64,000 bases of DNA, from contig NZ_LNDE01000004.1 in the NCBI RefSeq assembly GCF_002866025.1, forward strand, positions 62,001 through 126,000. The letters are read 5' to 3'. The stretch is from Thermotoga sp. KOL6. Lineage in GTDB: Bacteria; Thermotogota; Thermotogae; Thermotogales; Thermotogaceae. Both the position numbers and the translations under genes were made by a program. Positions 22,948 to 24,103 of the stretch are shown here, piece by piece (position 1 is the stretch's first letter; each line of letters begins with the position of its first letter). The notes under the pieces were generated by a model that had not been told where the DNA came from, searched no databases, and was given only the letters and a program-made list of their open reading frames with translations.

Positions 22948-23202
22948 TCACTCCGAAGGATACAGGAGATTGAAGTGGGAAGAGATGTAATTGAATTCTT
23001 CCTTCAGAGATTGATATGTTCTCTCCATTTCCTTTATCTCGAGCTCTAACCTTCTGTTGCTTTGGACTAAGTGGAAAGAGAGCATGCCTATTCTCAATGC
23101 TGTTATCCCCACAAATATTAAGATGGTAATAACAAGAATTGTGAAAACAAGTTGGGGAGAAAGTACCAGAACCTTTGACTTTTGATTAACCTTCGCTGGC
23201 AG
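22948..23202 (-). CDS. ftsL: FtsL-like cell division protein, CTG start
   Basis: A gene of 84 codons between rsmH and ftsI. Read from CTG 23202 it encodes a short basic N terminus (P-A-K-V-N-Q-K-S-K), one membrane helix (about 12-38, LVFTILVITILIFVGI) and a coiled coil (about 45-75, with RRLELEIKEMERTY), ending near LLYPSE. This is the architecture of FtsL, which links FtsI to the divisome, and position agrees. The CTG lies 8 bases after GGAGG; an ATT overlapping the rsmH stop is another candidate start. No ATG, GTG or TTG is available before the helix. FtsL proteins are poorly conserved, so the name rests on topology and location. Confidence 0.75.
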   Translation of the reverse strand: MPAKVNQKSKVLVLSPQLVFTILVITILIFVGITALRIGMLSFHLVQSNRRLELEIKEMERTYQSLKEEFNYISSHFNLLYPSE

Positions 23203-23203
23203 T

Positions 23204-24103
23204 TTAATCTCCTCCTTCCCCCACTAACTCCGCTGCACGAAGCCGTGCACTTCTGGAACGCGGGTTTTCTTTTATCTCTTTTTCAGAAGGCCGAACAGGT
23301 TTTTCCGTCAAAATACGAAATTTTTTGGAGCTTTTGAAAACTTCTTTCACTATCCTATCTTCCAACGAATGAAAAGATATTACTACTATTCTTCCACCGG
23401 TGTTGAGGATTCTCTCCGCTTTTTTCAAAAATTCTCTCAAGTTGTCAAGTTCTCTGTTGACGTAAATCCTTATAGCTTGAAACGTTTTGGTGGCAAAGTG
23501 TCTTTTTCGGCGTCTTATTTCATAGGAAGGTAAAGCTTCTCTTACAGCTTTCACAAGGTCGATGGTGGTATTGAGAGGTCTGTTTTCTACTATCTTCCTT
23601 GCAATTCTTCGTGCGAATCTCTTTTCTTCTCCGTACTCAAAAATAATGCGTGCTAGTTCCTCTTCTGATAGTTCGTTTAAAACTTTTTGAGCGTTCAATT
23701 CGCTTTCCAGATCCATTCTCATATCTAGTGGCTCTTCTCTTTCAAAAGTGAAACCTCGGTTTTCACCTTTCAACTGGTAGGTAGAAACTCCCAAATCCAT
23801 AAGTATCCCATCTACTTTTTCTATTCCTAGGGTTTTGAGAAGAAACGGTGCATCTGTGTAAGAAGCTTTAAATAAACTCACACGATTGGAAAAATTTTTG
23901 AGTTTTTCCTCGGCTATTCTTAAGACTTCTGAATCAACGTCTATTCCGATCAATTTACATCTCGAGCATAGTTCCAGAATGGCTTTTGCATGACCACCTT
24001 CACCAACAGTACAATCGAGGATTATCTTCTCATCCTCAGGCTTTAAATACTCGATCACCTCTTCAACCATTACTGGAATGTGGTAGTGGGTATATTTTCT
24101 CAT
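23204..24103 (-). CDS. rsmH: 16S rRNA (cytosine-1402-N4)-methyltransferase
   Basis: RsmH (MraW) methylates C1402 of 16S rRNA. The 299-residue protein shows the [13 protein letters not shown] start, the SAM-binding [10 protein letters not shown] motif, [10 protein letters not shown], and the C-terminal [11 protein letters not shown] and [15 protein letters not shown] segments. It is the first gene of a short division cluster, rsmH-ftsL-ftsI, and its stop overlaps the initiation region of the ftsL-like gene. Confidence 0.96.

Follow-up and report, generated by a model that had tools for sequence, protein, structure and literature searches.

A probable CTG-started ftsL gene between rsmH and ftsI in Thermotoga sp. 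KOL6

Our analysis points to a short gene in the interval between rsmH and ftsI of Thermotoga sp. KOL6. It is very probably the ftsL gene of this organism, a short FtsL ortholog that is read from a CTG codon. Comparison with related genomes supports the frame as a real gene, which appears FtsL-like by its position, its topology and a remote similarity. Such a gene would be hidden from gene finders because CTG is not accepted as a start. If this reading is correct, an apparent divisome gap in an early-studied hyperthermophile genus is removed, and a division gene would have been systematically lost by automatic annotation owing to its start codon. All positions below refer to the window, that is, the whole stretch of 64,000 nucleotides that was analysed.

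The reading frame and its conservation

The frame is open on the minus strand from 23223 to 22951 (91 codons), bounded by a TAG stop at 23226 upstream and by the closing TGA at 22950-22948 (Table 1). Its sole in-frame ATG, GTG or TTG codons are GTG 23112 and TTG 23097, both inside the predicted membrane helix, and ATG 23085 and ATG 23028; the longest ORF with a conventional start has 54 codons and lacks the N-terminal tail and much of the helix. An earlier note on this DNA had described a frame of FtsL layout in the rsmH-ftsI gap, with a basic tail, one helix and a coiled coil and with no ATG, GTG or TTG ahead of the helix. Both descriptions were borne out, the first such codon being the GTG within the helix, and the extent given there, 22948-23207, needs a small correction in that the gene counted from CTG covers 23202-22948. 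A scan of the gaps between genes across the whole window returned a few further candidate frames without usual starts.

The same note held that a frame broken in related genomes would speak against a gene. A search with the 84-residue product found the frame unbroken in 14 of 14 family genomes, with the match directly downstream of rsmH after orientation. Within the genus, variable columns at codon positions 1, 2 and 3 number 38, 12 and 66 of 83, respectively. Pairwise dN/dS values of 0.04-0.16 indicate strong purifying selection, with synonymous sites near saturation; dS values for pairs from different main lineages of the genus are about 2 or higher.

Table 1. Features of the rsmH-ftsI interval in window coordinates.
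Feature	Position	Strand	Basis or remark
Putative ftsL coding sequence, CTG to TGA, 84 codons	22948..23202	-	Frame conserved in 14/14 family genomes; purifying selection
Proposed start codon CTG	23200..23202	-	Invariant in 8/8 genomes; ATG, TTG or GTG at the head of the frame in other genera
Shine-Dalgarno AAGGAGGAG, core GGAGG 23211-23215	23209..23217	-	Within the last rsmH codons; invariant in 8/8 genomes
ATT, alternative start from the earlier note, overlapping the rsmH stop	23206..23208	-	2 bases after GGAGG; ATC in G004
rsmH (mraW), upstream neighbour	23204..24103	-	Stop TAA 23206-23204, one base ahead of CTG
ftsI-type class B penicillin-binding protein, downstream neighbour	21187..22938	-	ATG 22938; begins 9 bases past the ftsL stop
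Predicted transmembrane helix, residues 18-36, LVFTILVITILIFVGITAL	23095..23151	-	Kyte-Doolittle; within the AlphaFold2 helix
Predicted coiled coil, residues about 45-80	22963..23070	-	Heptad register; AlphaFold2 pLDDT
AGCGGAG, copy of the AGCGRAG(CG) motif in the rsmH tail	23228..23234	-	Motif comparison across loci
AGCGAAG, copy of the AGCGRAG(CG) motif in ftsL codons 2-4	23191..23197	-	Invariant in 8/8 genomes

Evidence for the CTG start

The CTG is identical in all seven Thermotoga genomes and in genome G004 of the sister genus (8/8), although eight genomes of two genera may represent few independent events. It lies in a block, AAGGAGGAGAT(T/C)nnnCTGCCAGCGAAGGT, that is kept in G000, the six other Thermotoga genomes and G004, and both the CTG and the CCA that follows it are invariant. 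At such divergence an internal Leu codon is not expected to remain unchanged, and CTG therefore appears to be fixed beyond codon-level expectation. Automatic recovery gave rsmH for 6 of the 8 loci. Among its 27 conserved Leu columns there is none with a single codon throughout, and 5 of its 73 fourfold sites are invariant; the rest of ftsL has 0 of 8. The invariance of AGCGAAG after the CTG was not counted in favour of the start, since these bases are part of a separate repeated motif.

The spacing of the Shine-Dalgarno sequence points in the same direction. The coordinates of GGAGG (23215-23211) and CTG (23202-23200) confirm the 8 intervening bases reported in the earlier note, and 2 bases lie between GGAGG and ATT 23208-23206. 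Among long ORFs of the window, GGAGG and ATG are 7-9 bases apart in 14 of 19 pairs, 8 being typical, which fits CTG and not ATT. The window holds 1585 CTGs on both strands, of which 12 have GGAGG 5-11 bases upstream and only 3 of these head a frame of at least 60 codons; the other two of these CTGs lie over 100 codons into longer open frames.

Other genera begin the same frame conventionally. ATG stands at its head in G001-G003, in G011-G013 and in Thermosipho and Fervidobacterium contigs, GTG in contigs L038 and L044 (the latter of Kosmotogaceae), and TTG in 10 of 10 loci read from family f2 (L118-L126, L128). As judged from these codons, weak ftsL starts are not confined to Thermotoga. A rare start kept across the genus and its sister genus, with ATG, TTG or GTG in relatives, would lend itself well to testing for selection on weak initiation. 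Against a CTG start stands the rarity of CUG, with only 0.024% of start codons in bacteria (PMC11497404). A six-frame search of the T. maritima proteome has been published (PMC3636130).

At the head of infC, in the place of an expected start codon, all 14 family genomes (L188-L201) have a conserved ATC behind a Shine-Dalgarno sequence, so that these organisms plausibly use near-cognate starts. The gene is a well-known case of such initiation, with ATT, ATC or CTG in various bacteria, and it encodes IF3 itself and is autoregulated. By analogy, the same ftsL gene might be translated from ATT 23208, which does overlap the rsmH TAA (ATT 23208-23206, TAA 23206-23204) as the earlier note had described when it left the choice between CTG and ATT open. 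ATT stands in seven genomes and ATC in the eighth (G004), and infC suggests that ATC-type starts occur in these same genomes. However, merely 2 bases separate ATT from GGAGG, the ATT arises from rsmH's own GAT-TAA or GAT-TGA, and the codon after it is free (AAA, GAA, GAT or GCT), whereas codons 2-7 are constrained. The invariance of CTG would also be left unexplained. With its wrong Shine-Dalgarno spacing and its replacement by ATC in G004 we rejected ATT as quite unlikely and retained CTG, which is invariant in 8/8 genomes at a spacing of 8.

Two further readings place the beginning of the protein within or before the end of rsmH. FtsL could be an extension of RsmH made by a +1 frameshift at the rsmH stop, with the Shine-Dalgarno sequence as stimulator in the manner of prfB, and both the Shine-Dalgarno-like run just 5' of this stop and the +1 frame of ftsL would suit such an event. 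Yet GAT to ATT would be a poor slip for tRNA-Asp, so the slippery codon is missing, and other genera make FtsL from an ATG, TTG or GTG of its own. The arrangement is moreover broken in G004 (L009, L032), where rsmH lacks the usual stop and continues in its own frame, different from that of ftsL, for about 8 codons into the gene, while CTG and the ftsL frame are kept. We rejected frameshifting as highly improbable. We give almost no credence to a true start at an upstream GTG or TTG inside rsmH or at GTG 23112 inside the helix. In-frame upstream GTG or TTG codons are present in G006, G009 and G010, but in-frame stops block them in four Thermotoga genomes (G000, G005, G007 and G008), on which ground they were rejected, and a start at GTG 23112 would drop the conserved tail and part of the conserved membrane helix.

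Identity of the product and its divisome partners

According to Leonard et al., the low conservation of the sequence made it necessary to assign ftsL from its location between mraW and ftsI; their tree did not include Thermotogae (PMC8871954). The gene described here lies in exactly this place. Hydropathy, heptad analysis and AlphaFold2 agree that its product matches the FtsL topology of a short cytoplasmic tail, one helix and an extracytoplasmic coiled coil. The first 16 residues carry a net charge of +3, the 19 residues of the membrane helix have a Kyte-Doolittle mean of 2.9, and the best heptad register has hydrophobic residues at 9 of 10 a/d positions. With 13 aligned sequences, AlphaFold2 predicts one confident helix over residues 16-80, with pLDDT above 90 over residues 21-70.

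Sequence similarity to known FtsL proteins is remote. In the family search no FtsL model was matched at the curated cut-off of 42.45 bits (family best 21.5, window copy 10.2), a value that is a recognition threshold and not a biological definition of FtsL. When the window genome was searched with ftsL_broad, this frame was the best match genome-wide, at only 10.2 bits. Among 21 Thermotogota members, FtsL models are the commonest NCBIfam matches (ftsL_broad 8, NF049847 6; best E 7.5e-5), and 10 of 10 proteins from the rsmH-ftsI interval of other phyla match ftsL_broad. Profile-profile comparison of the Thermotogota frame with FtsL of other phyla gave a probability of 91.5% over 41 columns, mainly in the coiled coil, where similarity can be unspecific. 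A PDB sequence search with the product returned only unrelated coiled coils. In the alignments Thermotogota FtsL stops at about profile position 60 of 85 and so has no distal C-terminal segment. We base the assignment to FtsL on synteny, on topology and on the profile-profile similarity.

The gene might also be real and CTG-started while its product is not FtsL in function, being some other small bitopic coiled-coil protein in the place of ftsL. Sub-threshold profile scores, the missing C-terminal segment and the failure to find FtsQ would agree with this. We consider it unlikely in view of the same place throughout the phylum, the predominance of FtsL models among the matches, the profile-profile result and the presence of a DivIC-like partner alongside it in these genomes.

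As for the partners of a putative FtsL, ftsI and FtsW/RodA-type proteins are present. Neither PF08478 in the KOL6 genome nor PF03799 above its cut-off in the 14 genomes detected FtsQ; since no more than 5 control genomes give a PF03799 match above the cut-off, the absence is only weakly indicated. The divisome of these 14 genomes may work without FtsQ. Side matches of the FtsL model led to a second family of small bitopic coiled-coil proteins, FtsB/DivIC-like, members of which were found in 82 of 103 Thermotogota genomes (E up to 0.01). One member is encoded at G000:C2:317801-318115 (L148, L164; further loci L142-L149, L158-L187), and in most loci read the gene stands immediately 5' of a methyltransferase gene (VTTSHKP motif). 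Among Pfam models, DivIC (PF04977) gives the best match for the members of G003 and G012 (6.8e-5 and 4.3e-5, both below the cut-off). A PF04977 search of the KOL6 genome had first matched only a 1184-aa coiled-coil protein, and the DivIC-like gene was found by the other route.

This second gene may share the peculiarity at its start. At one position G008 and the sister-genus genome G004 have ATG, and six Thermotoga genomes have ACG behind a strong Shine-Dalgarno sequence; G005 and G010 have no nearby ATG, GTG or TTG upstream of the membrane helix. The ACG also results from a Tyr codon (TAC) in the upstream gene, which overlaps here, and codon 12 (TTG, CTG or ATA), one base past the upstream stop, could be the start instead. 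These codons are suggestive only of a DivIC-like gene without a usual start in several Thermotoga genomes.

Proposed expression and comparison with known systems

With the Shine-Dalgarno sequence in the last rsmH codons and the start one base past the stop, a ribosome that terminates on rsmH is already positioned at the start. This placement can be read directly from the DNA, and we infer from it that the two genes may be translationally coupled. Ribosomes finishing rsmH, held by the Shine-Dalgarno sequence, would restart at CTG, where initiator fMet-tRNA would begin an 84-residue FtsL with fMet-Pro-Ala-Lys. As a poor start codon, CTG should limit FtsL output and would hold it low in comparison with the other products of the operon. 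The helix would then mediate pairing of FtsL with a DivIC/FtsB-type protein, for which a candidate gene lies at another place in the genome, and FtsL would act on FtsW-FtsI.

Most Thermotogota loci read (L033, L035, L037, L040, L043, L066, L118-L128, L204-L211) carry a repeated sequence, AGCG(G/A)AGCG, close to the start of rsmH, in its tail and at the 5' end of ftsL, at the locus on the sense strand only. L034, L036 and L129 lack it, and Thermotoga has a shortened form, the window copies of which lie on the minus strand at 24132-24126, 23420-23414, 23234-23228 and 23197-23191. Seven AT-rich genomes hold 26 exact sites, of which 23 fall in one cluster per genome with the same spacing; the cluster sequence was read for G093 and G094 and inferred from spacing for the remaining AT-rich genomes. 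In G099, where GC around the locus is 35%, copies of the 9-mer are more frequent in other parts of the genome. The motif codons GCG and CGG are almost unused in Thermosipho rsmH. No consensus RNA structure was predicted around the ftsL start and the motif, and pairing with an sRNA was rejected because nearly all exact matches genome-wide in the AT-rich genomes, on either strand, lie in the locus and leave no plausible partner. It is possible that AGCG(G/A)AGCG is a regulator binding site, and as a locus-specific motif it gives a testable lead on the regulation of rsmH and ftsL. We regard as doubtful a wider proposal, in which both halves of the FtsL-FtsB/DivIC pair come from non-standard starts (CTG, and ACG or another near-cognate codon) and the phylum-wide AGCGRAGCG flanking the ftsL start is the site of a regulator of rsmH-ftsL. 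If it were true, the pair would be kept scarce and tied to initiation-factor levels.

Compared with known systems, the proposed gene resembles infC in having a conserved near-cognate start with a strong Shine-Dalgarno sequence. It differs in that infC encodes IF3 itself and is autoregulated, a feedback that we do not ascribe to ftsL. Translationally coupled genes likewise share the Shine-Dalgarno sequence in the last codons of the upstream gene and the start one base past its stop, but the proposed CTG takes the place of ATG, GTG or TTG. Set against CTG-started bacterial genes, ftsL has no ATG, GTG or TTG in range, a strong and well-spaced Shine-Dalgarno sequence and a CTG that is conserved beyond expectation. 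With FtsL as modelled in TIGR02209 (ftsL_broad) and NF049847 it has in common the place between rsmH and ftsI, a single helix with the N-terminus inside followed by a coiled coil, and a remote profile similarity over positions 4-60 of 85. In contrast to these models, the Thermotoga copy appears to be CTG-started, has about 84 residues, lacks positions 61-85 and scores below the cut-offs.
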